A DNA stretch of 64,000 bases. Origin: Bacteroidales bacterium (GTDB lineage Bacteria; Bacteroidota; Bacteroidia; Bacteroidales; UBA932). The translations under genes and the position numbers were made by a program. The stretch lies in assembly GCA_016290835.1 (NCBI GenBank), contig JAEEVG010000004.1, positions 28,292 through 92,291 of the forward strand. Direction: 5' to 3'. The notes under the pieces are model-generated. The model searched no databases. It saw only the letters and a program-made list of their open reading frames with translations, and was not told where the DNA came from. Positions 11,121 to 64,000 of the stretch are shown here, in pieces; positions within the stretch are counted from its first letter, which is position 1, and each line of letters opens with the position of its first letter.

Positions 11121-11134
11121 ATGCTCGGTTTGTA

Positions 11135-13729: not shown

Positions 13730-14825
13730 CTTCTTCGGTTTTGATGATCATCGGGCCGCGGAGCTTATCGCCCGCCTGCAGGCCGCTCTTGATCTGGATG
13801 GTGACACCGTCGCTCAGGCCCGTCTCGACCTCGATGCGGTCGAAGGTGCCGGCGGCGTTCTTGCGATACACGAAGGTCTGCTCTCCGTCGAACTCCAGGG
13901 CGCTCTCCGGGATGGAAAGCACATCCGTGAGGGTCTCCAGGACGATCTCCGCGTTGGCACTGTAGCCGGAGCGGATCACATAGTCGTTATTGACCTTCAG
14001 GGCGGCCTTGATCTCGAACTGGTTGGCGCCGTTGTTCTCGACCGCCTTCGGCGAAATATACTCCAGGGCGGCCTCGGAGCTATAATCGGGCAATGCACCG
14101 ATGCTGATCTGCATCGGCATGCCCTCCACGAGCGCGCCGACCTCGGTCTCGTCGATGTTGCCGTCGAAGATCAGGTCCGACATGTTGGCCACGGTGGCCA
14201 CGGTCGTACCGTCGTTCATCGTGTTGGCCTGGATCACGGAGTTGCCCACCTTGACGGGAATGTCCAGGATGAGGCCCGTGATGGTGGAGCGGACCAGGGT
14301 GGAGCTGCCTGTGGTGTTGCGCGAGGACACGCCGTCACGGATGACCTCCAGGGACTCCTGGGCGGCCGCCTTCTCCTCGACGGCCTGGTTGTAGGCCTGC
14401 AGGACCTGGTCGTATTCCTCGTCGCTGACGAGCTTTTTGTCATAGAGGGCCTTCTCGCGGTCGTAATTGGTCTTGGCCTGCTTGAGATTGATCTCCGCGA
14501 GGCGCACGCGGGACTGGGCGGAGCTCAGGGAGTTCATGTCCGGGATGACGCGGAGCTTGGCGATGACCTCGCCCTCCTTGACCTGCTGGCCGGCCTCCTT
14601 GTAGAGTTCGGCGATGATGCCGTTGATCTGCGGCTTGACGTTCACCTCGTTGCGCGGCTCGATCTTGCCCGTGACGACGGTGGTGCGGTTGATGTCGGCA
14701 TAGCCCGCCTCCAGCTCCTGATACTCGATCTTGTCCGGGCGGGAATTCTTGAACAGGAACACGAAGGTCCCGATGAAGATCACCGCGATCAGCGCGAAAA
14801 TGATGTACTTGACTACTCGTTTCAT
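13716..14825 (-). CDS. Periplasmic adaptor (HlyD/MacA type membrane fusion protein)
   Basis: The 369-residue protein has one N-terminal membrane anchor (YIIFALIAVIFIGTFVFLFK), a split biotinyl-lipoyl domain (RNEVNVKPQINGIIAELYKE and GLILDIPVKVGNSV), a helical hairpin between them (about residues 90-160), and beta-barrel and membrane-proximal domains after. It links the inner-membrane permeases to the TolC channel. MacA-like adaptors of this kind serve ABC exporters of peptides, macrolides or lipids; the cargo is unknown. Confidence 0.93.
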   Translation of the reverse strand: MKRVVKYIIFALIAVIFIGTFVFLFKNSRPDKIEYQELEAGYADINRTTVVTGKIEPRNEVNVKPQINGIIAELYKEAGQQVKEGEVIAKLRVIPDMNSLSSAQSRVRLAEINLKQAKTNYDREKALYDKKLVSDEEYDQVLQAYNQAVEEKAAAQESLEVIRDGVSSRNTTGSSTLVRSTITGLILDIPVKVGNSVIQANTMNDGTTVATVANMSDLIFDGNIDETEVGALVEGMPMQISIGALPDYSSEAALEYISPKAVENNGANQFEIKAALKVNNDYVIRSGYSANAEIVLETLTDVLSIPESALEFDGEQTFVYRKNAAGTFDRIEVETGLSDGVTIQIKSGLQAGDKLRGPMIIKTEEDEKN

Positions 14826-49685: not shown

Positions 49686-51026
49686 CTAGCGCGCGACGAC
49701 CGGGAGGCCGGGGTGGCCGCCCGGAGAGACCGCGCGGACGGCGAAATAATAATTGTCCTTGCTCAGGGGGCAGGAGAACTCCGGTGCCTCCCCGCCCGGG
49801 ACGATATCCGGCTGGCCCGTCGGCAGGGCGGGCAGCCATTGGGACCGGTCCGTCTCCCGGCACAGCACCTGATAGGAAACGCCGCGGCCGTCTTCGCCGG
49901 GGGCGGGTTCCCACTTGAGAATGGTGTTGTTGTCCAGGGCGTTCGCATTGGCGATCCGCACATTCCGCGGGGCGGCCGGAGCCTGGGCCAGGTTCATCAC
50001 CGCAGCCAGGTTGACCCGGATATTGCGCACCAGGTACGGGAAATCGACATAGGCCGGCAGGTCGCCGTAATCGACCCCGTCTTCCGTGCGGACATCCTGG
50101 TGGGTGCGCTCATAGTCCTCGCAATACTCGCAGACACGCACGGCGGTGAAACCTTCCCGCTGGAAAGACGACTGATCGCCGCCCCGGCGATAGCGGTCCG
50201 TGCGGTAGTTCAGGACAACTTCCTGCTCCGGGACATAGATGGCGGCCATCTCCTTGATATAGCGCGCCAGCTGGCGGGAATCGCTATCCTCGCCGCTGCG
50301 GCTCTCCGAGAAGACACGGACCTTGTGGTCCTCCCGCAGTTCGGTCCCGCTGGCCCGGACATTGCCGATCATGTCGTTGCTGAGCACGGCCTGCACCGGC
50401 CATTGCTCCGCACGGGCGCGGGCGGCGAAGTGGCGGGAACCGTCCAGGCCCTGCTCCTCGCCGGAGACAAAGAGGCATTTGACGGTCTGCTCCAGGGGGA
50501 TTCCGGACAGGATGCGGACCGTCTCCAGCAGACAGGCCAAGCCGCTGCCGTCATCGTCCGCGCCGGGCGCGAAAGCCGTCGAATCCATCACGTCCAGCAC
50601 GCGTGTGTCGATATGGGCCAGCAGCAGGATTTCCCGCTCCGCGCGGGTCCCGGGCAGGGTTACCATCAGTTCCGGGACCTCCAGGACCCGGTCATAGCGC
50701 CCGCCGTTTCCGCCCACAGGATAGCTGACCCGTTCCACGAGGGGACGCGGGCGGCCGGGCGCGGCGGCCTGCGCCCAGCGTTCGCAGCGATCGGCCAGGT
50801 AAGTCACGGCCGCCCCCAGCCCGCGTGCCGGGTCGGTCCGGGAACTCAGGGTGTGGCGGGTATGCAGGGCCACCAGTTCGTCAATATACAGCCTGACGCT
50901 ATCGATGCTGACTTCGGCCACGGCGGCGGCGATCTGCGGATCGCCCGGTGCGGGCGGGGCCGGTTTGCAGGAGGCGGCCAGCAGCGCGAGGGCCGCCGGC
51001 ACGGCCAGGATGGAAAACTTCTTCAT
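49686..51026 (-). CDS. Secreted M28 family aminopeptidase with C-terminal Fn3-like domain
   Basis: The 446-residue protein has a lipoprotein-like signal peptide (MKKFSILAVPAALALLAASC, Cys20). The M28 zinc core reads LLAHIDTRVLD, GADDDGSGLACLLETVRIL, and FVSGEEQGLDGSRHFAAR, with a further acidic ligand in VQAVLSNDMIGN. The last 95 residues (from APAAPRNVRIANANALDNN) look like a fibronectin type III domain, often a spacer in surface enzymes. It probably releases amino acids from peptides or glycopeptides. Confidence 0.92.
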   Translation of the reverse strand: MKKFSILAVPAALALLAASCKPAPPAPGDPQIAAAVAEVSIDSVRLYIDELVALHTRHTLSSRTDPARGLGAAVTYLADRCERWAQAAAPGRPRPLVERVSYPVGGNGGRYDRVLEVPELMVTLPGTRAEREILLLAHIDTRVLDVMDSTAFAPGADDDGSGLACLLETVRILSGIPLEQTVKCLFVSGEEQGLDGSRHFAARARAEQWPVQAVLSNDMIGNVRASGTELREDHKVRVFSESRSGEDSDSRQLARYIKEMAAIYVPEQEVVLNYRTDRYRRGGDQSSFQREGFTAVRVCEYCEDYERTHQDVRTEDGVDYGDLPAYVDFPYLVRNIRVNLAAVMNLAQAPAAPRNVRIANANALDNNTILKWEPAPGEDGRGVSYQVLCRETDRSQWLPALPTGQPDIVPGGEAPEFSCPLSKDNYYFAVRAVSPGGHPGLPVVAR

Positions 51027-51048
51027 TCTGTCCGATTCTGAATCCGGG

Positions 51049-52053
51049 TTATTGGGCTTTGCTTTGCAGATAGGCCTTGAAGAAACGGCCCTGGGTGGTA
51101 GGGGTGAAATCCCAGTCGCTGATGAGCATCGGGGCCCAGCTGGTGTCGAAACACCAGACGGTGAACGAGATGCCCTTCTGCTCGAAATACCGGGTTATAT
51201 GCTCGCCATAGACGTCCGTCGACATCACCGGGACGTGTGCGCCCGGCTCATCCTCGAGACAGTATCCGATCTCCGTGCAGATGACGGGGTAGGTGTCCGC
51301 CACGAAACCGAAATCCCGCTCCCACTGCTCTTCCCAGGGTTCGGGGCGTTTCATCGGGTAGGGATGGGACACATAGGCGACATTCGGGCGGGCGATGGGT
51401 TCCTCCGCCACCGGCGTGAGGTCATAGGCCCAGTTGAATCCGGCGCAGAGGCACAGGGCGTTGGGATTGTAGGTGCGGACGGTGTCGATGATCTGCTCCT
51501 GCAACTCCTTCCATTCCGTCCAGGTGCAGGGGCCGGTGCCGTTCACCGTCGGTTCGTTGAAGAGTTCATACAGCGCCACCTGCGGTTCGTCCTTGTATCG
51601 CTGCGCGACCGTGCGCCAGAACTTGAAGGTTTCCTCTTTGGTGGTGTTGTACATCGGGGAGGTGTAGCGCTCCTCCTTGAGATTGCCGATGGAGTGCCAG
51701 TCCATGATGACGTACGAGCCATACTGTTTGGCCCATTCGATGCCCCGGTCCATCGCCTGGAAGGTCTCTTCCCAGCCCAGCGAATTGATATTCGAGGGAT
51801 GGACGGCGAAACGGACAACGTTCGCGCCCCAGTCGGCGGCCGCGGCGAAATACCGTTCGTTCCATTGGCCTTCGCGGACCAGCTTGACCGGGTCCGAAAA
51901 ACATAATCCACGGAAAATCAGTTCATTCCCTTTCGGATCGACGAACTTGTTCCCATCTACTTTCACCCAGCCCTCCCCGGTCGAACATGCGTTCGCCAGG
52001 ATCAGGGAAAGGACTGCGGCAACGATGACTGAAAATTTGATCTTGCTATTCAC
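51049..52053 (-). CDS. Family 5 glycoside hydrolase, lipoprotein
   Basis: The 334-residue protein has a lipoprotein signal peptide with lipobox LANAC (Cys23). The (beta/alpha)8 domain shows VDPKGNELIFRGLCFSDPVK, VVRFAVHPSN, acid/base YELFNEPTVNG and nucleophile PVICTEIGYC. GH5 covers endoglucanases, mannanases and others; the subfamily cannot be set here. The gene lies between the M28 peptidase and the mutarotase, with no promoter visible in the 32-base gap to the mutarotase, so it is likely in one operon. Confidence 0.92.
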   Translation of the reverse strand: MNSKIKFSVIVAAVLSLILANACSTGEGWVKVDGNKFVDPKGNELIFRGLCFSDPVKLVREGQWNERYFAAAADWGANVVRFAVHPSNINSLGWEETFQAMDRGIEWAKQYGSYVIMDWHSIGNLKEERYTSPMYNTTKEETFKFWRTVAQRYKDEPQVALYELFNEPTVNGTGPCTWTEWKELQEQIIDTVRTYNPNALCLCAGFNWAYDLTPVAEEPIARPNVAYVSHPYPMKRPEPWEEQWERDFGFVADTYPVICTEIGYCLEDEPGAHVPVMSTDVYGEHITRYFEQKGISFTVWCFDTSWAPMLISDWDFTPTTQGRFFKAYLQSKAQ

Positions 52054-52085
52054 GGTTATAATTGGTTGATTTTCTTGCGCTTGGC

Positions 52086-53228
52086 TTATTCCCGCACGGA
52101 GAAGCGGTAGATGACGGTGTGCCGGTAGGTCTCGCCCGGGCGCAGGACGGAGCTGCCGGGGAAGGCGGGATGGTTGAGGGCGTCCGGATAGAGCTGGGAC
52201 TCCAGGGCCAGGGCGGTGCGGCCGCCCGTGTAGAACTGCAGGCCGGGCTTGTCGTTGAGCACCTCCATCACCCGCCCGGAGGCCGGGGAATAGACCGTCG
52301 CGGCGAGTTCCGGCTGCGCCGTGACACCGTGGTTCAGGCAGAAATTCTGGTCGAAGCTGCGGACCATTCCCTCCGGGACGGGCGGGAGCTGGGCGCCGGG
52401 GACGAATGCGCCGCGCGCAGCCGGGGCGACTTGCCGCTCGCTCAGGAGCACCGGCCGCCGGAAATCGAAGGGCGTCCCCTCCACCGGCAGGATCTTGCCC
52501 GTCGGAATCAGGGTGGCGTCCATCTCTGTCATCGTATCGGCATCGATCCGGATGACGTGGCCGAGGACGTTTTCCGCCGGGAAGCCGTCGAGGTTGAAGT
52601 AAACGTGGTGGGAGAGGTTGCAGACCGTGGGTTTGTCCGTGGTCGCCTGGTAGTCGATCGAGACGCCGTCATCCTCGGTGACGGAGAAGGTGAGGAAGGT
52701 TTTCAGGGTCCCCGGGAAGCCGTCCAGGCTGTCCGCGAGGGTGCAGCTCAGCACCAGGGTATTCTCGCTTGCTTCTTCCACGTCCCACACGGTGCGATCG
52801 AAGCCGGCGGTCCCGCCGTGGAGGGTGTGGGCGCCGTTGTTGCGGGTCGTGTTGTAGGTCACGCCGTCCAGGGTGAAGGTGGCGTTCCCGATGCGGTTGG
52901 CGTAGCGGCCGAGGGCGGCGCCGACGGGATTGCGGCTGAAGCCGCGGTATTGCTGGATGTTGTCGTTGTGGCCGACGACATTGGTGTAGTTGCCGTCTTT
53001 GTCGGGGGTCCAGATACCCACGATGTAGCCGGCCAGGTTGGTAATCTGGGCGGTGATCCGGCCGTTGGTGATGGTGTAGAGGGAGACGGGCTTGCCGTCA
53101 ATCTCGGTTTCGAAGTCGGCTTTGTCCAGCAGTTCGCCCGGGTCCTTGGTCTGGGCACGAGACGTGAAGGCGCCGGAGAGCGCCAGGGCGCAAATGGCGG
53201 CAAAGCAGAGAAGTTTGTTCTTTTTCAT
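52086..53228 (-). CDS. galM: Secreted aldose 1-epimerase (mutarotase)
   Basis: ATG 53228 gives 380 residues with a signal peptide (MKKNKLLCFAAICALALSGAF...RAQ). GalM motifs are FSRNPVGAALGRYANRIGNA, NNGAHTLHGGTAGFDRTVWD, TVCNLSHHVYFNLDG and GRVMEVLNDKPGLQFYTGG. It interconverts alpha and beta anomers of free hexoses; export to the periplasm suggests that it serves sugars released by the nearby hydrolases. An in-frame extension upstream lacks family sequence. Confidence 0.94.
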   Translation of the reverse strand: MKKNKLLCFAAICALALSGAFTSRAQTKDPGELLDKADFETEIDGKPVSLYTITNGRITAQITNLAGYIVGIWTPDKDGNYTNVVGHNDNIQQYRGFSRNPVGAALGRYANRIGNATFTLDGVTYNTTRNNGAHTLHGGTAGFDRTVWDVEEASENTLVLSCTLADSLDGFPGTLKTFLTFSVTEDDGVSIDYQATTDKPTVCNLSHHVYFNLDGFPAENVLGHVIRIDADTMTEMDATLIPTGKILPVEGTPFDFRRPVLLSERQVAPAARGAFVPGAQLPPVPEGMVRSFDQNFCLNHGVTAQPELAATVYSPASGRVMEVLNDKPGLQFYTGGRTALALESQLYPDALNHPAFPGSSVLRPGETYRHTVIYRFSVRE

Positions 53229-53397
53229 ATGAGTATAGATTCGTTTGCTGTCCTTATCGGATACGAATCTACACTTTTTCCCCCGCTTATGCAACAAAGT
53301 CGGGAAATACAGCCCTCCGGAATCTCGCCGGATGTGGCGGATTTCCCTACAAGACAGTCAATTCGATAGACTACCTTTGCAGAAAACTCATACGCTT

Positions 53398-54018
53398 ATG
53401 AAAAAGATTCTGATTCTCCTTTTTGCGGCTCTGTGCCTCTCCGTCCCGAAGCTTTCCGCCCAGCTCGGCTTCGATTTCGGCATGGACTTTATTTTAATGA
53501 ACCGCGAGGCGCCGTCCGGCTACAAGGCCGGTGCCTTCGGAATGGGCCCTTACGCCGGCATCATCTACGGGATTCCGGTAAGTATGTCCGATATGATCAA
53601 CGTCGGGGTCAACTACAAATTCGATATCATCTACGGCGCGCCGGGCGCCTGGGACGATGAGAAGAAGCTGTGCCCGATGACTTTGATGAACCGCGATTCG
53701 GATATCCGGGAGCAGCACATTCAGGTGCCGGTCACCTTCAACCACGGCGGAGGCATCTTCAATCTCGCCGTCGGACCGGTGTTCGATTACTGCCTGAAGT
53801 CCTCCACCTCGTACGATAACGGCAAGACCTGGGCGTTTGATAACATCAAGGACCTGAAAATGAAGCCGTTCAATGTCTATCTCAAAGCCGGGGCCGGGGT
53901 CGGGCTGAAAGGCTTCTCCTTCAACCTGACGGCAAATTATGGCCTGCTGGATTTGTCCCCGGACAACAGTTCGCTGCGCCGCTGGGGCGTCGGTCTGGAT
54001 TTCCACCTCAATTTCTAG
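53398..54018 (+). CDS. Secreted outer-membrane-barrel-like protein, unknown function
   Basis: ATG 53398 gives 206 residues with a signal peptide (MKKILILLFAALCLSVPKLSAQ). The mature part alternates in barrel fashion (GPYAGIIYGIPVSMSDMINV, VGVNYKFDIIYG, GIFNLAVGPVFDYCL, GVGLKGFSFNLTANYGLLDL) and ends in LDFHLNF with a terminal Phe, a common outer-membrane insertion signal. TACCTTTG at 53372-53379 is a likely -7 box. Seven bases separate it from the WG-repeat gene. Confidence 0.8.
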   Translation: MKKILILLFAALCLSVPKLSAQLGFDFGMDFILMNREAPSGYKAGAFGMGPYAGIIYGIPVSMSDMINVGVNYKFDIIYGAPGAWDDEKKLCPMTLMNRDSDIREQHIQVPVTFNHGGGIFNLAVGPVFDYCLKSSTSYDNGKTWAFDNIKDLKMKPFNVYLKAGAGVGLKGFSFNLTANYGLLDLSPDNSSLRRWGVGLDFHLNF

Positions 54019-54024
54019 GACGCC

Positions 54025-55530
54025 TTGCGACAGTTAATTCTGACCCTGGGCCTGCTGATTCTCGGCAGCCTCTCCCTGGCCGGGCAGGACGTAGTGATCA
54101 GCGGCAACGCCGACTTCAAGCGGCTTTGCGAAGGCAGTACGCTCCCCAAGGTGGAAGGATGGGTGGTCGTCTCGAAGAATGTCTCCGCGGCAGGGCTTTC
54201 TCCGGAATACTGGTACGGATTAGCCCAGATCAAGAAGTCGGGGGACAACTATGTCGCCACCCTCGGCTATGGCCCCGTCCGCTGCGACAACATGGTCATC
54301 CTCGCCGACAGGCTGCTGGTCCACAACAGCGGCTCGAAGTATTCCGCCGTGTGCCTGGTGGACGGGAAATGGAAACCGGTGCTGAAAGCTTATACCTGCG
54401 ACGCCGTCTTGATCGGGCACGCGGACGGAGCCCGGGCCAAGCTGCTGATCCGGGACAGAAAAGGCCTCTACAGTTGGATTGACGAGGGCGGAAAGCACCT
54501 CTCCGGCACGCCGGAACACTATGATAAAGCGCTCCTGTACAACGGCAACAAGGAAGTGGTCGCCGTCAAGAGCGGAAGCAAGTGGGGCGTGATGTCGCCG
54601 GATGCCCGCGTCGTCGTTCCCATCCAGTACGATACCCTCTTCCTCACCGCACCGCTCCGCCGGTGGGGCGGGAAATGGGCCGATGCCAACTGGTTCTTCG
54701 TGAACGACGGCGGCCGCTGGGGGGTGCGCGGCGACGATGGCTCCGAACCCTTCCCTACCGTTTACGGCGGACTCTCCTACTGGCCCACGGCGCCGGACAG
54801 CTGGTGCTACCACATGCCCGGCGGGAAGTGGGGGATGAAGGAAAGCGGCGGCCGGCAGATTCTTCCCGAAGAATACGACGGCCTGTCGACCTACAGTTTC
54901 AGCCCGTCCGTAAGCGGCTCCCTGCGCCTGCCTTTCGCCATTATCGCCGGGCGCGGGAAGGGGCGGGCGCTCCTCAACCACAAAGGCAACGAACTGCTCC
55001 CATTTATGGAAGATGCGGACAGGTTCGACATGCTGGTGATGTTCTATCCCCAGAAATCCTTCTCCGTCTTTACCTGGAACCGCTACAAACTCTGGACGAA
55101 GGGAGAATTCGAATCCACGGCCGAATTCGAGGCGAGGAAGCAGGACCCATCCAAGGCCGCAGGCTACGTGGCGTCCCTGCTTCCCGCTGCCGAGAAGGCT
55201 TTCGCGGCGGCCATCCTCGGGAATGACGCCCGGCTGATCCTGAGCCGCTACGACGCCGACAGCGAGTGCTTCCTCTTCTCGGTCGACAAGATCCTGCAGG
55301 ACACCTACAGAATCCGCGTCCCCCGCGCCGACGCTCCGCTGTTCAAGGAGGAGTTCAAGGACTTCTCGGCCGCCGCCCTCGGGACGGCCAAGTACTTCAT
55401 CCAGAATGATATGCTCGCGCTCCGCAGCATTGTTTTCACAACTCCGGAAGGAAAATCATTCAGCTTCGAGAATCCGGCGGCTGAAGGGTATTCCCTGCCC
55501 GTACTCAAAGATCTTGATTTGATACAATGA
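54025..55530 (+). CDS. Secreted WG-repeat protein
   Basis: The frame opens directly after an in-frame stop at 54016-54018, and the only plausible start is TTG 54025, which gives a signal peptide (RQLILTLGLLILGSLSLAGQ) and 501 residues. Three WG-type repeats are visible at about 180-300: SKWGVMSPDARVVVPIQYDT, GRWGVRGDDGSEPFPTVYGG and GKWGMKESGGRQILPEEYDG. The C-terminal 150 residues are unrelated and helical. WG repeats form beta-propeller-like or solenoid structures of unknown function. It shares an ATGA overlap with the next gene. Confidence 0.82.
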   Translation: MRQLILTLGLLILGSLSLAGQDVVISGNADFKRLCEGSTLPKVEGWVVVSKNVSAAGLSPEYWYGLAQIKKSGDNYVATLGYGPVRCDNMVILADRLLVHNSGSKYSAVCLVDGKWKPVLKAYTCDAVLIGHADGARAKLLIRDRKGLYSWIDEGGKHLSGTPEHYDKALLYNGNKEVVAVKSGSKWGVMSPDARVVVPIQYDTLFLTAPLRRWGGKWADANWFFVNDGGRWGVRGDDGSEPFPTVYGGLSYWPTAPDSWCYHMPGGKWGMKESGGRQILPEEYDGLSTYSFSPSVSGSLRLPFAIIAGRGKGRALLNHKGNELLPFMEDADRFDMLVMFYPQKSFSVFTWNRYKLWTKGEFESTAEFEARKQDPSKAAGYVASLLPAAEKAFAAAILGNDARLILSRYDADSECFLFSVDKILQDTYRIRVPRADAPLFKEEFKDFSAAALGTAKYFIQNDMLALRSIVFTTPEGKSFSFENPAAEGYSLPVLKDLDLIQ

Positions 55531-56213
55531 TGAAAAGAATCCTTGCACTTCTGTGCCTTGCCGGCCTGAGCCTGGCGGCGGGCGCACAGTCCAAATTCGA
55601 CACCGGCACGCACGCGACCACGGCCCTGGGCCAGCTCCAGGAAATGAGCGGGCAGACGATATCCATACCCTCCGGGAACCATCACATCGTGATTCCGGCC
55701 GCAAAAGCCGTCAGCGCCGTGAGTTCCGCCAGCTCGGCTTCGGGCAGCAGCAGCGCCCTCGGCCTTGCCTTCAACATCCTCACGCCCATCCTCTTCAGTG
55801 CCCTGGACGCATTGGAAAGCAGCAACTCTTCCGCAAGCGCGCCCTCCCAGGCCGTCAGCTATGTCGAAGCACCGAATCCCGTGGCTCCCGACCGGTATGA
55901 CGAGTGCGATGCCGACATCGTAAGCAAATTCCCGCCCGGCTGCAAATTCGAGCGCCACTACCCCGTCCCGGGCGAAAAGGACTGGTACCTGGAACTGGAT
56001 ATGACCAACGAAAGTTCCGTGGACCACGATTTTACGATCATCTTCTGGGAGAAAGACGGAAGGGACGGCACACCGCGGCTGAACGTAATCCGCAGCGGCC
56101 TTCCCCAAAACCGCATCCACGATCCCCTGCTCGGGATCAGCGTGAACGGGCATTACGATACGGTCACGCCCACCACCCGCTACAAAATCGAGAAAATCAT
56201 CTACAACGACTAA
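55527..56213 (+). CDS. Secreted protein of unknown function
   Basis: The 228-residue frame starts with two adjacent ATGs (55527 and 55530); the second overlaps the upstream TGA. A signal peptide (MKRILALLCLAGLSLAAGAQ) is followed by a Ser/Ala-rich low-complexity stretch (about residues 62-108) with hydrophobic LGLAFNILTPILFSALDAL, then a beta-like C-terminal domain (DWYLELDMTNESSVDHDFTI, TRYKIEKIIYND). No family is recognised. Coupling to the WG-repeat gene suggests joint function. Confidence 0.78.
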   Translation: MMKRILALLCLAGLSLAAGAQSKFDTGTHATTALGQLQEMSGQTISIPSGNHHIVIPAAKAVSAVSSASSASGSSSALGLAFNILTPILFSALDALESSNSSASAPSQAVSYVEAPNPVAPDRYDECDADIVSKFPPGCKFERHYPVPGEKDWYLELDMTNESSVDHDFTIIFWEKDGRDGTPRLNVIRSGLPQNRIHDPLLGISVNGHYDTVTPTTRYKIEKIIYND

Positions 56214-56220
56214 TCCGCTC

Positions 56221-56307
56221 CCCTGTCATCCTGAACACACCCCTGTCATCCTGAACGAAGTGAAGGATCTACAAGCACCAGATTCTTCGCTGCGCTCAGA
56301 ATGACAG
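56221..56307. repeat. Dispersed palindromic repeat forming a long hairpin
   Basis: CCCTGTCATCCTGAAC occurs at 56221-56236 and again at 56241-56256. The second copy starts the left arm (56242-56270), which pairs with 56279-56307 (AGATTCTTCGCTGCGCTCAG onward) over 29 positions with five mismatches, several of them G-U compatible in RNA. It lies between two plus-strand genes and may act as a terminator. The right arm resembles the repeat at 879-904. Confidence 0.75.
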
Positions 56308-56396
56308 GAGCCGGAAAAGGTGACCAAAAACCTATCTGGTTCTAGTAAGACCTGAGAATAATGATTACTTTTGTATTTGTCAATTACTAAGTAGTT

Positions 56397-57578
56397 ATGA
56401 AATTAAAGGTCAGCATCCTAGCGGTGTCGCTGCTATGCGCTTCCTGCGCCACACAACCCGCCCTCAATAGTTTTAAAGACCTCCCCGAAGATATCAGCGT
56501 GGAAACCATCGGCAATCGTGTCGTGGAGCAATTCCTCGCCTCTGATCCGCTGAACTATGGAAATAATCTTCCGGGTTATCAGGCACCCTATACTTATGGA
56601 GGCGGCAAGGAAATGAATTATGCCGTGGTAAGCCTTTGGGTTAACGCCATCGAGTTTGCCCGCCGTTCCCACAACAAGGAGCTGGAGAATCGATTGATCG
56701 ATTCTTTTGAGCCGTTCTTTGGAGAGAAAAAGTCAAAGTGCAATCGTGATAATCACGTGGATTTCTCGATCTTCGGAGCCATTCCGCTGGAGATTTATCT
56801 GATGAATGGTGACAAGCGGGCATTGGAAATGGGACTCCGATATGCTGATCACCAGTGGGAAGATCCGACAGGAGAGCCCGGCGAGGAGGTGGGTGGCAAT
56901 GGTAATTTCCCGATCGAGGGTCAGCGGGAATTCCTTGCAAACGGTTATTCTCCCCAGACCCGCCTGTGGATTGATGATATGTACATGATCACAGTCCTCC
57001 AGGCCCAGGCTTATCGAGCCACCGGCGACCGCAAGTATATCGACCGTGCGGCCCGTGAGATGAAAATGTATATGGACAAACTCCAGCGGGACAATGGTCT
57101 ATTCTACCATGCCGCCGAAGCGCCCTATTTCTGGGGACGGGGAAATGGCTGGATGGCGGCAGGTCTGCCTATGCTTCTGGCCTATCTCCCCAAAGATAGT
57201 GAGTATCGTCCTTCCCTGATGGAAGCCTATCAGAAAATGATGAAAACGCTCCTTGCATATCAGCACGAAAACGGCATGTGGGGGCAGGTTATTGATGATC
57301 CGGAGTTTTGGGATGAATCTTCCTGTTCGGCCATGTTCGCCTATGCGTTTATCGAAGGTGTGCGCCATGGCTGGCTGGACGAGGCTACATACGGCTCTGC
57401 CGCACGCAGGGCCTGGGTTTCCCTGTGCGGGAAACTGGATCAATATGCTAATATTGCAGATGTCTGCATCGGGACCAATCGTAAAGACAGCCGCGAATGG
57501 TATATGAACCGTCCCCGCGCTATCGGTGACCCGCACGGGCAGATGGCCATGATGTGGATCTGCAGCGCGCTGCTGTAA
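56397..57578 (+). CDS. GH105/GH88-like unsaturated glycuronyl hydrolase, lipoprotein
   Basis: The 393-residue protein has a lipoprotein signal with lipobox LCASC (Cys16) and an (alpha/alpha)6 toroid pattern: YGGGKEMNYAVVSLWVNAIE, TRLWIDDMYMITVLQAQAYR (the conserved WxDDxYM motif with the catalytic Asp), YFWGRGNGWMAAGLPMLLAY and MWGQVIDDPEFWDESSCSAM. Such enzymes remove unsaturated uronic acids left by pectin or rhamnogalacturonan lyases. TACTTTTG at 56366-56373 is a possible -7 box. Its codon use looks less GC-rich than the neighbours. It is the last chromosomal gene before the integrated element. Confidence 0.88.
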   Translation: MKLKVSILAVSLLCASCATQPALNSFKDLPEDISVETIGNRVVEQFLASDPLNYGNNLPGYQAPYTYGGGKEMNYAVVSLWVNAIEFARRSHNKELENRLIDSFEPFFGEKKSKCNRDNHVDFSIFGAIPLEIYLMNGDKRALEMGLRYADHQWEDPTGEPGEEVGGNGNFPIEGQREFLANGYSPQTRLWIDDMYMITVLQAQAYRATGDRKYIDRAAREMKMYMDKLQRDNGLFYHAAEAPYFWGRGNGWMAAGLPMLLAYLPKDSEYRPSLMEAYQKMMKTLLAYQHENGMWGQVIDDPEFWDESSCSAMFAYAFIEGVRHGWLDEATYGSAARRAWVSLCGKLDQYANIADVCIGTNRKDSREWYMNRPRAIGDPHGQMAMMWICSALL

Positions 57579-57610
57579 TAAAAACAACATATGGGGAATA
57601 ACACTGTTTT

Positions 57611-57632
57611 TGTGCCCCGGGCGGGAATCGAA
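57611..57632 (-). other. Probable att site: 3' end of a tRNA gene
   Basis: Read on the minus strand, the segment gives TTCGATT (T loop), CCCGC (T-stem 3' strand), CCGGGGC (acceptor 3' strand) and A (discriminator), the exact 7-5-7-1 layout of a tRNA 3' end. The 5' half of the tRNA is absent: the bases beyond 57632 do not supply the T-stem partner GCGGG. It lies 200 bases before the recombinase gene, as expected for an att duplicate. Confidence 0.7.
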
Positions 57633-57832
57633 GAACTGAACGGGTCTGAAATGGGTTGAATGGATTTGACATTGGTGACAGCTTATTATTAATTGATATT
57701 CAATAAATTATATGCGTTTTTGAGCCTGTTTCGATTCTAGTACGGGGTCTAGAAAAATCAAAATATTTCAGCTAAGTCGGCAAAAATCGGCAAAAATTAT
57801 TACCTTTGTGCCGAAGGCTAAATAGTTGATAT
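57633..57832 (+). promoter_or_regulatory. Recombinase upstream region with promoter and inverted repeats
   Basis: TACCTTTG at 57801-57808 is a likely -7 box, 24 bases before ATG 57833. TCGGCAAAAA occurs twice in tandem just upstream (about 57777-57796), and TCGGCA pairs with TGCCGA at about 57810-57815 around the -7 box. Further upstream TTCTAG (57735-57740) and CTAGAA (57749-57754) form an inverted repeat with an 8-bp spacer. The stretch 57685-57712 is very AT-rich. Confidence 0.5.
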
Positions 57833-59239
57833 ATGGCGAATATCGTGTATAAACTCTCCACGAAGGAGGACAAAATCACTGGAAAACGTGAGATTCACGT
57901 CCGTTTTTACCATGGAAAGTTCGATGTAAGGGCAAAAACGAACCTATACGTACAACCTGAATACTGGGATGCGGCTAAGCAAACGGTGAAGATTCCGAAC
58001 ACTCGTTCGAACACTCCGGAGAAGCAGCAGCTCATTATGAAACTGTCTGCCCTTAAGGCGGATCTCGAGTCTCTTTCAAATGATATCCGGGAAGCGTACA
58101 TTGCCGACGGAGGAGGAAAAAGAGATCTTCCTACCGAGTGGCTGTCTGATTTCATCGCAAGCCGTATCCTTGCCCAGGAGAGGATTGTCGCTCAAATGGA
58201 AGAGGAAGAAACAGCTGAAGAAAAGGACGACTCACAGAAAGAATTCTTTGACACGTTCGAACATTTTGTGTCCATCCAGAAAATATCCATTTCCCGGATC
58301 CGGCACTACAATGTCATCATCCGCGCCCTTAAACGCTTCGCCATCTATAGCGCCCAGGAAGTAAGCTTTGCCACGCTATCCTCGGATATGCTCCGGAAGT
58401 TCTCCAAGTTCCTAGAGAATGAGCACAAGTTCGTCGTGGAAGGAAAGGACGGAAAACCGCGCATCAAAGACCCCCTCTATAAAGCGGCTTATAAGTCAGT
58501 TCCTGAATGCCGGTTCCCGAAGCAGCGAGGCCAGAATTCCATTATCGGCACGATGTCCCGTCTCCACACCTTCGTCCGCTGGTCGATCAAGAGAGGCTAC
58601 ATGAACCGCGACCCCTATGATGATTATGTCATCGGCACGGCCATATATGGCACTCCCTTTTATCTCACTAAGGAGGAACGAAACCAACTGTACCAGGCGA
58701 AGTTCCCGGATAACCCCGGTCTGGATGTCCAGCGTGATATCTTCGTCTTCCAATGCTTCATCGGATGCCGTGTCGGCGACCTGATGAAAATGACCAAGGC
58801 CAACGTCATCAACGGCGCCATCGAGTACGTCCCCCGCAAGACCAAGGAAGGCCGCCCCTATACGGTCCGAGTCCCGCTCTCGCCCACCGCATTGGAAATC
58901 CTGGAGCGCTACAAGGACCAGCCCGACGGGCGTCTTCTTCCTTTTATTTGTGAGCAGGACTACAACCGAGACATCAAGAAGATGATCAAACTCGCGGGCA
59001 TCGACCGCGTGGTTACGACGCTGAACACCATCACCCGCGAAGAAGAGAAGCATCCCATCTGGGAAGTCGCCTCCTCCCACATGGCCCGTCGCGTCCTGGT
59101 CGGCAACCTTTACAAAGAAGTCAAGGACCCCAACCTTATCGCCAAGATCTCCGGCCACGTCGAGAACTCCCGCGCCTTCAGCCGCTACCGCGACATCGAC
59201 GAGGAAATGGCGAAGGAGGTTATTCTGAAACTTGAATAA
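57833..59239 (+). CDS. Tyrosine-type site-specific recombinase (integrase)
   Basis: The 468-residue protein has the Bacteroidetes integrase layout: an N-terminal arm-binding domain (MANIVYKLSTKEDKITGKRE), a SAM-like core-binding domain (about 135-260, HYNVIIRALKRFAIYSAQEV) and the catalytic domain. Catalytic residues are R313 (FIGCRVGDLMK), K338 (RKTKEGRP), H416 and R419 (SSHMARRVLVG), H442 (SGHVEN) and nucleophile Y452 (FSRYRDID). It lies 200 bases from the tRNA-like att fragment. Its last 69 bases recur at 60406-60474. A family relationship to the invertases of Bacteroidetes type I restriction loci is possible. Confidence 0.95.
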   Translation: MANIVYKLSTKEDKITGKREIHVRFYHGKFDVRAKTNLYVQPEYWDAAKQTVKIPNTRSNTPEKQQLIMKLSALKADLESLSNDIREAYIADGGGKRDLPTEWLSDFIASRILAQERIVAQMEEEETAEEKDDSQKEFFDTFEHFVSIQKISISRIRHYNVIIRALKRFAIYSAQEVSFATLSSDMLRKFSKFLENEHKFVVEGKDGKPRIKDPLYKAAYKSVPECRFPKQRGQNSIIGTMSRLHTFVRWSIKRGYMNRDPYDDYVIGTAIYGTPFYLTKEERNQLYQAKFPDNPGLDVQRDIFVFQCFIGCRVGDLMKMTKANVINGAIEYVPRKTKEGRPYTVRVPLSPTALEILERYKDQPDGRLLPFICEQDYNRDIKKMIKLAGIDRVVTTLNTITREEEKHPIWEVASSHMARRVLVGNLYKEVKDPNLIAKISGHVENSRAFSRYRDIDEEMAKEVILKLE

Positions 59240-59296
59240 GAAAAGGAAACAGTATTTCAAGGAAGATAGGAGTTATTTCCTAACTTTGCAGATACT

Positions 59297-60391
59297 ATGA
59301 AAGAAAAACAATTCATATCGGTTATTCCCTACTCCGGTGGCGGAGACCTTCTCGCCGATGCCCGCACCATCATTGACGGTGCCAGACAATATGCCTATTC
59401 CGCAGTCAACGTGGCGCTCGTCCAGCGCAACTGGCTGCTGGGCAAGCGTATCAGCGAGGAGATTCTCAAAGGAGACAATCGGGCTGAATACGGTGCGGAA
59501 GTCATCGTCCGTCTGGCAAAGGAACTGAGGGCCGAGTATGGCAACGGCTTTACCAAGACCAATCTTTACAACTTCACGGAGTTCTATAAGGCCTTTCCTG
59601 AGATTTTCCACGCAGCGAGTGGAAAATTCGACATCCGACTCAGCTGGACACACTACCGTGTGCTCCTGCAGGTAAACGATCCGAGGGTCCGCGCTTGGTA
59701 TATGGCCGAAGCTGCCGCCCAGACCTGGAGCACAAGAACCCTTCAACGCAATATCGATTCCCAGTATTACTACCGGCTCCTACAGTCCCAGCACAAAGAC
59801 CTTGTGGAAAAAGAGATGCTGGAAATCACCGCTCCTTCGCAGGTCCCCGACCGGCTGGAATTTGTCAAGAACCCCGTCGTTGCCGAATTCCTCGGCTTGG
59901 AATCCCGCGCCGAATTCACGGAGAACACCCTTGAGGGTGCCATCATCACCAACCTCCAGAAGTTCCTGATGGAACTCGGCAAAGGCTTCGCCTTCGTCGC
60001 CCGCCAGCAGCACATCCATACCGAAAAGCAGGACTACTACATCGACCTGGTTTTCTATAACTATATCCTCAAATGCTTCTGTCTCATCGACTTAAAGACC
60101 TCCAAGGTCACGCATCAGGACGTCGGGCAGATGGACATGTACGTGCGGATGTACGATGAACTCAAGCGCGGAGAAGGCGACAATCCCACCATCGGCATTA
60201 TCCTGTGTTCGGAAACCGACGAAGACATCGCCCGCTACTCTGTCCTGCATGGCAACGAGCAACTCTTCGCCAGCAAATACAAACTCTATCTCCCCTCCGA
60301 GGAAGAACTCCGCGCTGAAATCGAAGCTCAGAAGACCCTTTTCTACCTCCAGCAGGCTGAAGACAAAACAAAACCTGACGGGCAAGACTAA
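59297..60391 (+). CDS. DUF1016/YhcG-type PD-(D/E)XK nuclease
   Basis: The 364-residue protein has the DUF1016 N-terminal winged-helix-like domain (AYSAVNVALVQRNWLLGKRI, TNLYNFTEFYKAFPEIF, LSWTHYRVLLQVNDP) and the C-terminal nuclease domain with QDYYIDLVFYN and CFCLIDLKTSKVTHQDVGQM, the D...E/D-x-K metal centre being D (IDLVF) and D-x-K (DLKTS). Proteins of this type often accompany type I restriction systems and other defence modules in Bacteroidetes; the role is not settled. A TAACTTTG box (59281-59288) ends eight bases before the start. The gene is flanked by the two recombinase tails. Confidence 0.92.
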   Translation: MKEKQFISVIPYSGGGDLLADARTIIDGARQYAYSAVNVALVQRNWLLGKRISEEILKGDNRAEYGAEVIVRLAKELRAEYGNGFTKTNLYNFTEFYKAFPEIFHAASGKFDIRLSWTHYRVLLQVNDPRVRAWYMAEAAAQTWSTRTLQRNIDSQYYYRLLQSQHKDLVEKEMLEITAPSQVPDRLEFVKNPVVAEFLGLESRAEFTENTLEGAIITNLQKFLMELGKGFAFVARQQHIHTEKQDYYIDLVFYNYILKCFCLIDLKTSKVTHQDVGQMDMYVRMYDELKRGEGDNPTIGIILCSETDEDIARYSVLHGNEQLFASKYKLYLPSEEELRAEIEAQKTLFYLQQAEDKTKPDGQD

Positions 60392-60405
60392 ATTTCCGGA
60401 TAACC

Positions 60406-60474
60406 CGCGCCTTCAGCCGCTACCGCGACATTGACGAGGAGATGGCCAAGGAGGTCATCCTGAAACTGGAATAA
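60406..60474 (+). pseudogene. Second copy of the last 69 bases of a recombinase gene
   Basis: The stretch encodes RAFSRYRDIDEEMAKEVILK plus LE and a stop, identical at the protein level to the end of the intact recombinase (59171-59239). The two 69-bp copies differ at six bases, all at synonymous third positions. Sequence to the left of this copy (GGATAACC) no longer matches the recombinase, and the frame has no start, so it is a gene fragment. Confidence 0.88.
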
Positions 60475-60932
60475 TATCAATCAGTTGTGTTCTCAACGTC
60501 AACTTGTGAAAAGTTTGTGGTACTACCTCAAAAACTACCACATAAACTACCTCAAAAAGAACTTACAACGCCTTTTTCAACTTGGTTCAGTGACAATCGT
60601 ATTTCTTAGTTTTGTCACAAGGATAATCAATTATTGATTATTATGCGCACAAAAGTAAGCTACATAATTTGCCATAAGTGTCCTATTTCGGGTAGATATG
60701 GCAAATTATAGAAGATATAGTAACATGCAATCGAATGTAATAGCTGTCCTGATGCGTTCTTTACATTCGTTCTGATTTATTAACCACAGAAAGGCCCCAA
60801 AATATTATAAATCTTGTCACTTTTCCATAATACTGACAGACATTATATACTTTATCGGAAGCAAAATCTTGTGCATGCTTTGGACTAAAGAAATATATTT
60901 TGTACCTTTGTAGTTAGTGATATACAAACCGA
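60475..60932. promoter_or_regulatory. AT-rich gene-free stretch with inverted repeats and the abiE promoter
   Basis: No gene is seen. A 13-bp direct repeat (ACTACCTCAAAAA) is at 60522-60534 and 60546-60558, with GTGGTA/TACCAC (60517-60522, 60536-60541) around the first copy. A perfect 13-bp inverted repeat ATAATTTGCCATA / TATGGCAAATTAT is at 60664-60676 and 60697-60709, and a 9-bp one CGAATGTAA / TTACATTCG at 60732-60740 and 60761-60769. TTTG at 60879-60882 and TACCTTTG at 60903-60910 (20-nt spacing) form a good promoter for the gene at 60933. Confidence 0.65.
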
Positions 60933-61757
60933 ATGGAGACAAAATATAATAAAACGGTTTCCTCTTCTGAAAGCGCTCTGTTAGGACTCCTGGCAGAAGA
61001 GGGAAAGCAATGGTTTACCATTGAAGAGGCATACGCCGCCTTTCCGGACAAATCGGCAGAGGCGGTGCGTTTCATGTTGAAGCGAATGCTGGACAAGGGG
61101 CTGTTGATTAAGCTTTCCAGAAAAGTTTATTGGACGGTTCCTTTTGACCAAGAGGCGGAAGACTATCTTCCAGACTGGCATTTGATGGCCGAACCACTAG
61201 CTGGAGGCAAACACTATATAGCCTACTATTCAGCCCTTCAGATTCACGGCCTTATTACCCAGCCGTCACTGAAAGAACAGATCGTCCGTGAGCGTCATAA
61301 AACGGAGACCATTATACTGAAAGGAGTTGAATTCCAGTTCATTTACCACAACCCCAAGCATTTTTTCGGGATGAGGAAAGTATGGATAGACTCATACAAC
61401 AAAGTATCCTGCTCCGATTTGGAAAAAACGATGATTGACTGCTTGTATATGCCGGCTTATGCCGGAGGCATCGTTGAGGTGGCGAAAGCGCTTTGGACGG
61501 CAAGGGAAAAACTGGACTATGGAAAACTGCTTGCTTACACAAATCAATTTGACAGCCAGGTTGTCATCAAAAGACTTGGATTCTTGCTGGATAAACTGGA
61601 GATCAGCACGAATATCATAGAAGAACTTCGCAGCCTACGCAGCGCGACGGTGTCACCATTGGACACGGAAGTCCCAAATGAGGGAAAGATTTCCACCAAG
61701 TGGAGTATCCGGCAGAATGTTGAGCTCGAAACAATTATCAACGCAATAAACAACTGA
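60933..61757 (+). CDS. abiEi: AbiEi-type antitoxin
   Basis: The 274-residue protein has an N-terminal winged-helix DNA-binding domain (ALLGLLAEEGKQWFTIEEAY, RFMLKRMLDKGLLIKLSRKV) and the AbiEi C-terminal domain (YYSALQIHGLITQPSLKEQI, VSCSDLEKTMIDCLYMPAYA). AbiEi represses the operon and counteracts the AbiEii nucleotidyltransferase toxin, a type IV pair associated with abortive infection. The toxin gene follows after four bases. The inverted repeats upstream are candidate operators. Confidence 0.88.
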   Translation: METKYNKTVSSSESALLGLLAEEGKQWFTIEEAYAAFPDKSAEAVRFMLKRMLDKGLLIKLSRKVYWTVPFDQEAEDYLPDWHLMAEPLAGGKHYIAYYSALQIHGLITQPSLKEQIVRERHKTETIILKGVEFQFIYHNPKHFFGMRKVWIDSYNKVSCSDLEKTMIDCLYMPAYAGGIVEVAKALWTAREKLDYGKLLAYTNQFDSQVVIKRLGFLLDKLEISTNIIEELRSLRSATVSPLDTEVPNEGKISTKWSIRQNVELETIINAINN

Positions 61758-61761
61758 TATC

Positions 61762-62565
61762 ATGATACGTCCGGCAGAAATTCAGAAGAAAGCGAACAAG
61801 GAAAAAGTGAGGGACACCCAGATAGAAAAGGATTACATCCTGACATGGATTCTCACAGGCGTAGCCAATAATGAAGCCTTGTCCCAAGCTTTGGCCTTCA
61901 AAGGCGGCACGGTCCTTAAAAAATTCTACTTCAAGGACTACCGCTATTCCGAGGACCTTGATTTCACCTTGGTTGATGATCGTCTTTCCAATGAGGAAAT
62001 CCAGAATGCTTTCAAGGAAGTGTTCCTATATGTTCGAGAAGAAGCCAACATTCCGCTCTCCATGGAGGATTTCGGCATCCACGAAACGGGAAACATCAAC
62101 TTCTATATCTCCTATGTCGGTCCCCTCGGAGGGACTGGGGCCAACAAACGCGTCAAGGTTGACATCTCCCGGACGGAATTGCTTTGCTTCAAGCTGGAGA
62201 AACGGCCAATGTTTGACGCCTATTCCGACCAAGAAGACTGTTCGGTCCATTGTTATTCTTTGGATGAGGTGATGACGGAGAAGATGCGGTCGCTGCTTTC
62301 CAGAACCCAGCCGCGTGATTACTATGACCTATGGTATTTGTCGGAAATGGAAGGCATGGAAATGACCGATCTCCGATTTGAGTTCGAGGCGAAAGCCCGA
62401 CACAAAGGCCTTGATCCAGATTCCTTGCAGGAGAAGCTTGACGGGAAGGTTAACGTTTTCAAGTCCAGATGGGAGAGTTCCATGAAGGACCAGATCGCAG
62501 AATTGCCTCCCTTTGAGCAGGTCCATCGAGAATTGGGCAAGCACTTCCGTCTTCTGTTCAAATAG
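61762..62565 (+). CDS. abiEii: AbiEii/AbiGii-type nucleotidyltransferase toxin
   Basis: The 267-residue protein carries the nucleotidyltransferase motif: FKGGT (residues 47-50 region) and RYSEDLDF with D65 and D67 as metal ligands. Downstream motifs VKVDISRTELLCFKLE, YSLDEVMTEKMRSLLSRTQP and PRDYYDLWYLSE are those of AbiEii toxins, which modify RNA targets with nucleotides to stop growth during phage infection. All key residues seem intact, so the pair is probably functional. Confidence 0.92.
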   Translation: MIRPAEIQKKANKEKVRDTQIEKDYILTWILTGVANNEALSQALAFKGGTVLKKFYFKDYRYSEDLDFTLVDDRLSNEEIQNAFKEVFLYVREEANIPLSMEDFGIHETGNINFYISYVGPLGGTGANKRVKVDISRTELLCFKLEKRPMFDAYSDQEDCSVHCYSLDEVMTEKMRSLLSRTQPRDYYDLWYLSEMEGMEMTDLRFEFEAKARHKGLDPDSLQEKLDGKVNVFKSRWESSMKDQIAELPPFEQVHRELGKHFRLLFK

Positions 62566-62597
62566 TAGCGACAATTAATGGGTGAATCAATGCCGTT

Positions 62598-63359
62598 ATG
62601 AATAATGATTTGAATGAACGCAGAAAAGCCAAGAAACGCTTGGCGCTGAACTCCCGTGATATTCATGTTGGGTGGATTGTGGGAGCGGGCGTTTCTATGC
62701 TCATCTTTTTGCTGGCCACTTTCGCCACGGCTTACCGCCATGACGCGTATTCTTCAAGGTTAGGGTTAAGGGACCTGATGACTACAGATGTTTGGTTCCG
62801 GGTATTCCTAGCCTTAACCTGCTTTTCATTATTGTTGTTCCTAGGGCTGCTTGTTTACGCATTCGTCGCTGGAAGAATCGACAGGTCCGGTGATAACGAA
62901 GGACAGGAAGCGCTACCGATGGCTAAAACACCAGAAATTAAGGATGTGACGGAAGTTGCAATTAAAGATGAGTCTCCGGTAGTAACACGGCCAGCATCAT
63001 TCGCCATCAACGAGGATAAACTTCGAAAACTTCTGGACACGCCTTTTATGCGCAAGCAATCAAATGGTTCGAGCAAAACCAATCTCGACAGATTTATCGA
63101 TGACGTAAAAACCGTTCGAATCCAACATCAAAAGGGAGCAAAGGATGGCATCAACGACAAGAGCATCACTTCGATTGCCAAGATTCTCTACTCGAATAAG
63201 CACCAGAAGCAACGACCGCTTCCTTCCTTTGTCAAATGGAACACCACCTTATTTGAGTGTCTGAACTTAGAAGCGCCTCAAAAAGGGAATATCAATAAGA
63301 GTAAAGATTTGGACGAACAAATAACGAAGCTATTCAGTTACCTTATTCCCTCGGAATAA
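62598..63359 (+). CDS. Membrane protein with cytosolic tail, unknown function
   Basis: The 253-residue protein has two membrane segments (IVGAGVSMLIFLLATFATAY at about 28-47 and VFLALTCFSLLLFLGLLVYA at about 68-87), a linker, and a basic, helical C-terminal region of about 150 residues (KLRKLLDTPFMRKQSNGSS, SITSIAKILYSNKHQKQR). No family is recognised. It lies 32 bases after the AbiEii gene on the same strand, so it may be part of the same unit or separate cargo. Confidence 0.75.
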   Translation: MNNDLNERRKAKKRLALNSRDIHVGWIVGAGVSMLIFLLATFATAYRHDAYSSRLGLRDLMTTDVWFRVFLALTCFSLLLFLGLLVYAFVAGRIDRSGDNEGQEALPMAKTPEIKDVTEVAIKDESPVVTRPASFAINEDKLRKLLDTPFMRKQSNGSSKTNLDRFIDDVKTVRIQHQKGAKDGINDKSITSIAKILYSNKHQKQRPLPSFVKWNTTLFECLNLEAPQKGNINKSKDLDEQITKLFSYLIPSE

Positions 63360-63620
63360 TCCCCCTGAAGAATCCCCAGCCATAAGGGATAATCCCAACT
63401 TCAATCACCGCCGCTTGTGGGTAATTGACTGATAATCTGTCAATTGCCCGCATTTCTTATCAATCCCCACCTTTGTTCTACCAAATAATCTATTTTATGT
63501 TTGTCACGGCCAATCAGGAGCCGTGAGATTTCCGACCACGTGTTCCGGAGGCCCGAAGCCAAATGAGATCCCCATCGGAAAGGGGGTCAAGAGAGGCAGA
63601 ATTCCAAAACATATTTGACT
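63360..63620. promoter_or_regulatory. Gene-free stretch rich in short hairpins
   Basis: Three inverted repeats follow one another: GGGTAATTGAC / GTCAATTGCCC (63419-63429 and 63439-63449, one mismatch, 9-nt spacer), TCACGGC / GCCGTGA (63504-63510 and 63520-63526, 9-nt spacer) and TTCCGA / TCGGAA (63530-63535 and 63575-63580). It precedes an excisionase-like gene and may hold a control RNA, operators or a replication or transfer site. A weak -7-like CATATTTG is at 63610-63617. Confidence 0.45.
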
Positions 63621-63938
63621 ATGGATATGAAATTGGACTTGTTCGAGCTCCTCCGGGAATTTCCCGAAGCAAACCTGACTGTCCACGCCGGAGACCTGGG
63701 CCATTTCGCCCGGGAACTCCTGGCCGAAGCGCGTCAGGACTTCGAGCGCGAGCGCGCTGCGATCGCGGAGGAAAAAAAGGAGGAGTACCTCACCCCTGAG
63801 ATGGTCAAGACGCTGCTCAGGATTTCGGAGAGCACGCTCTACCGAATGGCGAAAGCAAAGATCCTCATCCCTGTGTTTGTCGGCGGACAGAAACGCTACC
63901 GGCGTTCCGACCTCGACAAGATCCTAAGCCCCTCGTAG
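63621..63938 (+). CDS. Excisionase-like helix-turn-helix protein
   Basis: ATG 63621 gives 105 residues (a TTG at 63615 would add two). The N-terminal half is helical and charged (FARELLAEARQDFERERAAI). The C-terminal half is a MerR-like or excisionase-type domain: LTPEMVKTLLRISESTLYRM and PVFVGGQKRYRRSDLDKIL. In Bacteroidetes elements, such proteins are found next to integrases and replication genes and direct excision or regulate transcription. Confidence 0.85.
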   Translation: MDMKLDLFELLREFPEANLTVHAGDLGHFARELLAEARQDFERERAAIAEEKKEEYLTPEMVKTLLRISESTLYRMAKAKILIPVFVGGQKRYRRSDLDKILSPS

Positions 63939-63940
63939 CG

Positions 63941-64000
63941 ATGCTTTACACGATCATCTATGATTTCATGTGGAAAGACCTGCGTCTCCGGGGCGCAGAG
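63941..64000 (+). CDS. Start of a further element gene, cut by the window edge
   Basis: ATG 63941 lies two bases after the stop of the HTH gene and opens a frame with MLYTIIYDFMWKDLRLRGAE up to the edge. The opening resembles HTH-type replication or plasmid-maintenance proteins in Bacteroidetes elements, but 20 residues are too few to be sure. Confidence 0.45.
   Translation, partial: MLYTIIYDFMWKDLRLRGAE

Follow-up and report, generated by a model that had tools for sequence, protein, structure and literature searches.

The repeated integrase 3' end in this Bacteroidales genome is probably a fusion scar within what looks like an integrative and mobilizable element (IME): fusion of two related IMEs, followed by deletion, would have left one integrase, two cargoes and an integrase stub. 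The repeat lies in the window, by which we mean the whole 64,000-nucleotide stretch of DNA that was analysed. In front of the second repeat copy stand an intact integrase gene and a YhcG gene, and the DNA from that copy onward matches the interior of an AbiE-carrying element. The features are as follows, all on the + strand.

57612–57632 (+): left end of the element, with the att-like core GTGCCCCGGGCGGGAATCGAA; the sequence shared with relatives starts there, and the preceding DNA differs
57833–59239 (+): intact tyrosine integrase gene, 468 aa (Pfam Phage_integrase, Phage_int_SAM_5 and Arm-DNA-bind_5)
59169–59239 (+): tail 1, the 3' end of the intact integrase gene (repeat pair with synonymous differences)
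59281–59288 (+): TAACTTTG, candidate Bacteroidota -7 promoter box before YhcG (excess of TAnnTTTG after integrase and stub stops)
59297–60391 (+): cargo 1, YhcG/DUF1016 PDDEXK nuclease-like protein, 364 aa (Pfam; PADLOC)
60391–60406 (+): 16 nt resembling integrase codons ..KFPDNP.., fused to tail 2 at CCC (1 mismatch to locus L007)
60404–60474 (+): tail 2, evidently what is left of a second integrase gene as a stub of 22 residues plus stop (1 mismatch in 71 to the integrase tail of locus L009)
60933–61757 (+): cargo 2, AbiEi-like antitoxin, 274 aa (PADLOC AbiEi, 2.3e-82; no Pfam match)
61762–62565 (+): cargo 2, AbiEii nucleotidyltransferase toxin, 267 aa (Pfam AbiEii, 4e-37; PADLOC AbiEii, 2.3e-90)
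62598–63359 (+): c0, element core gene, 253 aa, the right-hand border of the cargo (10-ORF cluster, 10 of 17 loci; no Pfam match)
63615–63938 (+): c1, HTH_17 protein, element core gene (Pfam; 9-ORF cluster)

The repeated tail and the element that carries it

A repeat search of the window returned a direct repeat of 71 nt, 92% identical, at 59169–59239 and 60404–60474. The original prediction of a 69-base repeat with six third-position differences was therefore real, and the repeat reaches 2 bases further upstream. Each of the six differences is a synonymous third-position change (ATC/ATT, GAA/GAG, GCG/GCC, GTT/GTC, ATT/ATC and CTT/CTG), and both 69-nt copies translate to RAFSRYRDIDEEMAKEVILKLE*, that is, 22 residues and a stop. 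The chance that six of six random substitutions would be synonymous is 7e-5, or 4e-4 if transitions are weighted. When the genome itself was searched with the 71-mer, two places were matched at E ≤ 0.001, namely, tails 1 and 2 (the second at E = 3.7e-23). The claim that tail 2 had been selected as coding DNA applies to its history but not to its present state: it is a short remnant inside a 31-codon open stretch, and the stub itself is probably without function.

The 468-aa recombinase carries arm-binding, SAM-like and catalytic integrase domains (Pfam), so the element has an integrase of its own, as an IME should, and this recombinase looks like its left-end integrase. Relatives of the integrase are encoded at 12 loci in a search of genome contigs, the relatives being metagenome contigs or genomes. 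At 8 of these loci (L003 to L009 and L013), the shared sequence starts at window 57607–57614 with the core GTGCCCCGGGCGGGAATCGAA or one close to it, and the DNA just upstream differs; L003 additionally has window 50002–50985 in common. The core resembles a tRNA 3' end in reverse complement, so a tRNA origin is putative. ARAGORN detected no tRNA gene in window 50000–64000 and, at the element ends of the 12 loci, a single tRNA-Val (L004, outside the core), with none in the eight longer loci. In L051 and L052, similar cores are seen again at the far end, ~15 and 17 kb away, respectively. Beyond the far core of L052, the genes appeared by eye to be ordinary chromosomal ones.

The element runs from the integrase, reading inward, through changing cargo, which lies close behind the integrase gene and is often defence-like, to the core protein c0, an HTH protein and, in relatives, mobilization genes. 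As predicted from gene content, this combination of an integrase, a variable region and recurrent core genes is the layout of an IME. In L050, the core genes are followed by genes for an IstB-like ATPase, for a NikA-like protein and for a relaxase; ORFs from other loci join those of L050 in cluster c3, with 5 members, and in cluster c5, with 4. Since the window contig stops at 64000, short of the mobilization genes and the far end, its own mobilization genes were not seen; a search of the same genome did not find the rest of the element, the relaxase match being only a 33-residue fragment. No integrase relative was found in viral contigs. By eye, c0 (about 250 aa) has apparent membrane segments near its N-terminus. 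Separately, L051 84–14780 holds an integrase, both end cores and many defence-like genes (AbiEii, metallophosphoesterase, GmrSD, AbiH and ResIII helicase); clustering did not recognise the c0-relaxase core set in this locus.

Both cargoes of the window resemble defence genes. The protein encoded between the tails has the DUF1016_N and YhcG_C (PDDEXK) domains that define the YhcG family (Pfam) and belongs to the PADLOC candidate defence family PDC-S02. Of 27 plasmid records with matches, the 20 listed match the query within its YhcG segment, and a phage search with the YhcG protein gave 14 records. In the second cargo, AbiEi adjoins AbiEii, the arrangement of an AbiE type IV toxin-antitoxin system. 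We also observed an imperfect palindrome of ~58 nt at window 60602–60659 (CTTAGTTTTGT..AAGGATAATCAAT/ATTGATTATT..GCGCACAAAA.TAAG). It recurs at 81–91% identity in L003 (9010), L004 (10611), L005 (7425), L007 (9023) and L014 (2211), five loci in which the surrounding genes differ, and it is also present in L009.

The consensus of the Bacteroidota -7 promoter box is TAnnTTTG. This motif occurs within 60 nt past the integrase or stub stop at 18 of 52 ends (16 of 49 once three offset duplicates are removed), relative to a mean of 1.7 and a maximum of 7 in 1000 shuffles. On the reverse strand, it was counted 2 times, and in the interval 200–260 nt downstream, at 1 of 51 ends. None was read within 60 nt after window tail 2. 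Some cargo genes seem to carry their own promoter in the gap past the integrase stop, so that cargo could outlive the integrase.

Origin of the second tail

In L009, an integrase gene stands directly before the counterpart of window 60404–62912 (AbiEi/AbiEii), without YhcG. Its tail differs from tail 2 at 1 of 71 bases and from tail 1 at seven, and its downstream DNA is collinear with window 60404–62912 at 96% identity; the reading frame of the L009 integrase itself is broken near codon 34. From the integrase 3' end on, tail 2 and the AbiE genes thus match the interior of another element. Because the L009 tail is only one base off and runs collinearly into the window sequence, tail 2 is evidently the stub of a second integrase, and the proposal that it derives from another recombinase gene is borne out. 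Accretion calls for two related source elements. The right part of the window matches L009, and no donor was found for the YhcG part: close YhcG genes (E ≤ 1e-120) occur in 10 of 398 family genomes, the window's own included, and the 9 other loci have no integrase in their ~1.5-kb flanks.

The 16-mer at 60391–60406, just before tail 2, has the right order and strand relative to the integrase. An equally good match to the integrase set was obtained for 2 of 4000 random window 16-mers and for 0 of 1337 ending in CCC, control values that apply to a short match picked after inspection. The joint at CCC is probably a second deletion, in an integrase that would have been deleted twice.

We propose that two related elements came to stand in tandem, either because one integrated beside the other at their common end site or through a crossover between integrase genes. 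One deletion would have extended from the YhcG stop codon into the second integrase as far as its middle, and another would have removed integrase codons ~296–445 at the CCC microhomology. The product would be a composite with stacked cargo, comprising one intact integrase, YhcG, the 22-residue stub, AbiEi/AbiEii and a single set of core genes, in which the stub would be the fossil of a cargo gain. This agrees in outline with the earlier suggestion of two recombinase genes and a deletion between them, for example of a restriction locus; no sign of such a locus was found, and more simply the missing part would be the rest of an element together with the 5' part of its integrase. The tandem intermediate, with two full integrases around YhcG, was also expected from the original prediction, and no genome carrying it was found among the relatives.

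Cargo exchange and integrase stubs in relatives

Behind the integrases of relatives, we found AbiEi/AbiEii, AAA_15/AAA_21 ATPases, AlbA/Schlafen, KAP NTPase, HNH, DUF6577 with AbiEii, and YhcG; several cargo ORFs of L003, L010, L012 and L054 gave no informative match. Other cargo genes are therefore present behind the same kind of tail, as had been anticipated. A YhcG-type gene follows the integrase in L047 and L058, and a similar gene does so in L031 (67% DNA identity over 1.1 kb to L047).

Pairs of loci were compared across the integrase stop. In L047/L058, an integrase identity of 77–80% gives way to 92% over the last 40 nt of the gene, and the cargo is 91–97% identical; in L115/L122, it goes from 86–93% to 98–100% near the integrase stop; and in L056/L121, it goes from ~62% to 86% and then to 72–78%. 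L115/L128 has no step (78–93% in the integrase and 63–92% in the cargo). L003 and L007 are identical over a segment that opens ~40 nt ahead of the stop and closes 113 nt past it. In the part of the integrase that precedes this segment, within the final 1000 nt of the gene, identity is 86–97%, and in the cargo it is 90.6% overall (78–100% by stretch). This last pair was considered as a sharp cargo swap and rejected, as it has a local identity peak at the stop and no step. Only a few of these pairs suggest cargo exchange at the integrase 3' end, a hotspot being unproved. It is possible, if doubtful, that these Bacteroidales elements trade and stack defence genes by a favoured left-hand crossover zone in the final ~70 bases of the integrase gene, which are conserved and adjoin the cargo. 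If this were true, lone integrase 3' stubs would signpost a following defence gene and could be used for finding unknown ones.

An alternative reading dispenses with the tandem. Homologous recombination could have used conserved integrase 3' DNA and the core genes (c0 and HTH) as anchors, with a crossover at the tail inserting YhcG. Tails 1 and 2 open with 28 identical bases, and steps in cargo identity near the stop are seen in the pairs above. In addition, the window and L003 have a common integrase (97% over 57607–59241) and unlike cargo, diverging from ~40 nt before the stop, although the two also break elsewhere in the gene, where divergence climbs to about 5% near -435. A plain double crossover, however, swaps cargo and leaves one tail rather than two. 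Since a duplicated tail requires a single crossover with a circle plus a deletion, this unlikely route becomes the fusion of two elements in another form.

When tail 2 was searched against 400 genomes of the genus, 44 places in 38 genomes were matched. Based on blastx against 31 integrases, 28 of these places lie in a full integrase (at least 85% covered) and 16 do not. Since coverage is possibly underestimated at places with 52–65% identity, only the ten places that keep ≤25% of the integrase and have at least 1 kb of upstream DNA were used; window tail 2 is one of them, counted manually as a stub, with an intact integrase in the same stretch. The rest of the 16 were left out of the stub count: one lies too near a contig end (G508, at 0.14 coverage with 253 nt upstream), and five keep 36–63% (0.36–0.63). 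The ten stubs are scattered in length, at 22, 27, 34, 38, 48, 63, 74, 77, 83 and 104 residues. In a family sample, which overlaps the genus sample, 24 of 364 genomes had a tail match; among the 7 loci examined there, short stubs stand in L169 (37 residues) and L176 (24 residues) and a 73-residue piece in L175, a contig end truncates L181, and the other three have full integrases.

One locus, L127 (G588), repeats the architecture of the window with an integrase only 37% identical to that of the window: a full integrase (10137–11504) is followed by a three-gene cargo (two genes without a family match and a metallophosphoesterase), and behind this cargo come a 27-residue stub, which ends at 14368, and a DUF6577 gene. 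Nothing among the compared loci convincingly matched the DNA between its cargo and stub (14060–14285). In G200, the window's AbiEi (98%) and a 198-aa AbiEii frame (95%) follow a 37-residue stub, c0 is shortened (180 aa, 68%) and the IstB-like, NikA-like and relaxase references are all without a match in 16 kb. Past this eroded AbiE element, at L184 10293–15999, lie further large genes, one of them cytosine methyltransferase-like by its first residues.

The same next gene or DNA can stand behind either a full integrase or a stub. This is the case for the AlbA gene (full in L128 and L115, stub in L122), for L009 relative to the window, and for L111 (full) relative to L123 and L124 (stub), where only 66–100 nt are comparable. 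The families behind the examined stubs and partial integrases are AbiE (window and G200), AlbA/Schlafen (L121 and L122), RhuM (L135 and L136), an ATPase (L126) and DUF6577 (L127), of which several are only candidate defence genes; the stubs of L110, L109b and L125a are outside this set.

Several loci showed further peculiarities. Near a contig end in L123 (9019–9135), an unrelated reading frame from upstream runs on in frame into the 38-residue integrase tail. Behind this tail, the first 66 nt are the same as behind the L124 stub, and 100 nt have 90% identity to the DNA that follows the full integrase of G542. L135 (G457; L125/L135) contains two 97% identical copies ~3 kb apart, at 3080–3364 and 6396–6680. 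The repeated unit looks like an internally deleted integrase gene, and its two parts stand ~500 nt further apart in G371; by eye, one L135 copy adjoins tRNA-like sequence. Contigs that end in or shortly past the integrase 3' end (L005, L008, L013, L111, L114, L120, L123 and L124) suggest that the cargo junction is variable or multi-copy in the samples.

In integrons, cargo genes are added as cassettes behind a tyrosine recombinase gene. By analogy, the integrase might recognise a site within the 3' end of its own coding sequence, such that tails 1 and 2 flank a tail-plus-cargo cassette that was inserted or removed. The climb in identity near the integrase stop in L047/L058 and L115/L122 would fit such a mechanism, as would the order integrase, cargo, tail and next gene, which was seen twice (window and L127), and the stub starts of L123 and L124, which lie within a few codons of each other. 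Common stub starts were sought as a sign of a fixed site, but the starts are scattered, leaving 22 to 104 residues, and neither a constant recombination site at the cassette borders nor a cassette with a constant end was found. Moreover, the window stub bears an extra internal integrase-like piece, and the stubs of L110 and L121 contain stop codons and resemble decay. The original idea of a cassette insertion, if read as a precise event at a single fixed site, is not supported, given the scattered starts, and we consider an integron-like mechanism very improbable.

Even less probable is that two contigs were joined during assembly. The contigs of several relatives end in or soon past the 3' end of the integrase, which shows that assemblies do break at this point; against an artefact, the same order exists in L127 with a distant integrase, and the two tails of the window are 8% different. 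Finally, a local duplication of the integrase tail behind YhcG or a conserved noncoding motif, for which a direct repeat within one contig could speak, is ruled out for practical purposes by the collinearity with L009, as tail 2 is nearer to the L009 integrase (1 of 71) than to tail 1 (6 of 71) and the L009 homology runs on for 2.5 kb.

Relation to known elements and significance

Tandem accretion and integrase-side defence hotspots are both known; the window combines the two in an element of the Bacteroidales, where the stub is their visible trace. According to the available excerpt of PMC5704250, accretion of IMEs and CIMEs involves related integrative elements that integrate in tandem and then decay. 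The fusion that we propose is like this in its own integrase, its decaying resident, its incoming tandem element and a composite that may move as one. It differs in that the decayed CIME partner in that excerpt retains attL and attR, whereas the window has a 22-residue integrase stub and no end site kept between the two cargoes: the end-core pattern (≤2 mismatches) matches the window at 57612 only, and none was seen by eye in 60380–60500. In addition, the core genes seen in the window occur once.

The excerpted account of P4-like satellites (PMC9122126) places an anti-phage hotspot between psu and int. The window resembles this hotspot, with changing defence genes beside an integrase and a conserved element gene at the other border. 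P4, though, is an enterobacterial phage satellite, whereas the window belongs to a Bacteroidales element with relatives that carry NikA-like and MobA/VirD2-like genes; stacking with integrase stubs was not found in that excerpted account of the hotspot (PMC9122126). Mobilizable Bacteroides elements of the NBU1/NBU2/Tn4555 type have a tyrosine integrase and a MobP relaxase in the excerpted description (PMC5704250). By that description (PMC5704250), the window is like them in its tyrosine integrase and Bacteroidota host, and it differs in its defence-like cargo. Integrase stubs that mark stacked cargo were not described in the titles and abstract openings of the mostly non-subscription literature on accretion, defence cargo, truncated integrases and YhcG.

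Taken together, this one stretch of DNA illustrates how, with only one integrase, an integrative element may come to hold two defence-like systems. Such stubs record past element fusions or losses, and the DNA on their 3' side may lead to cargo.
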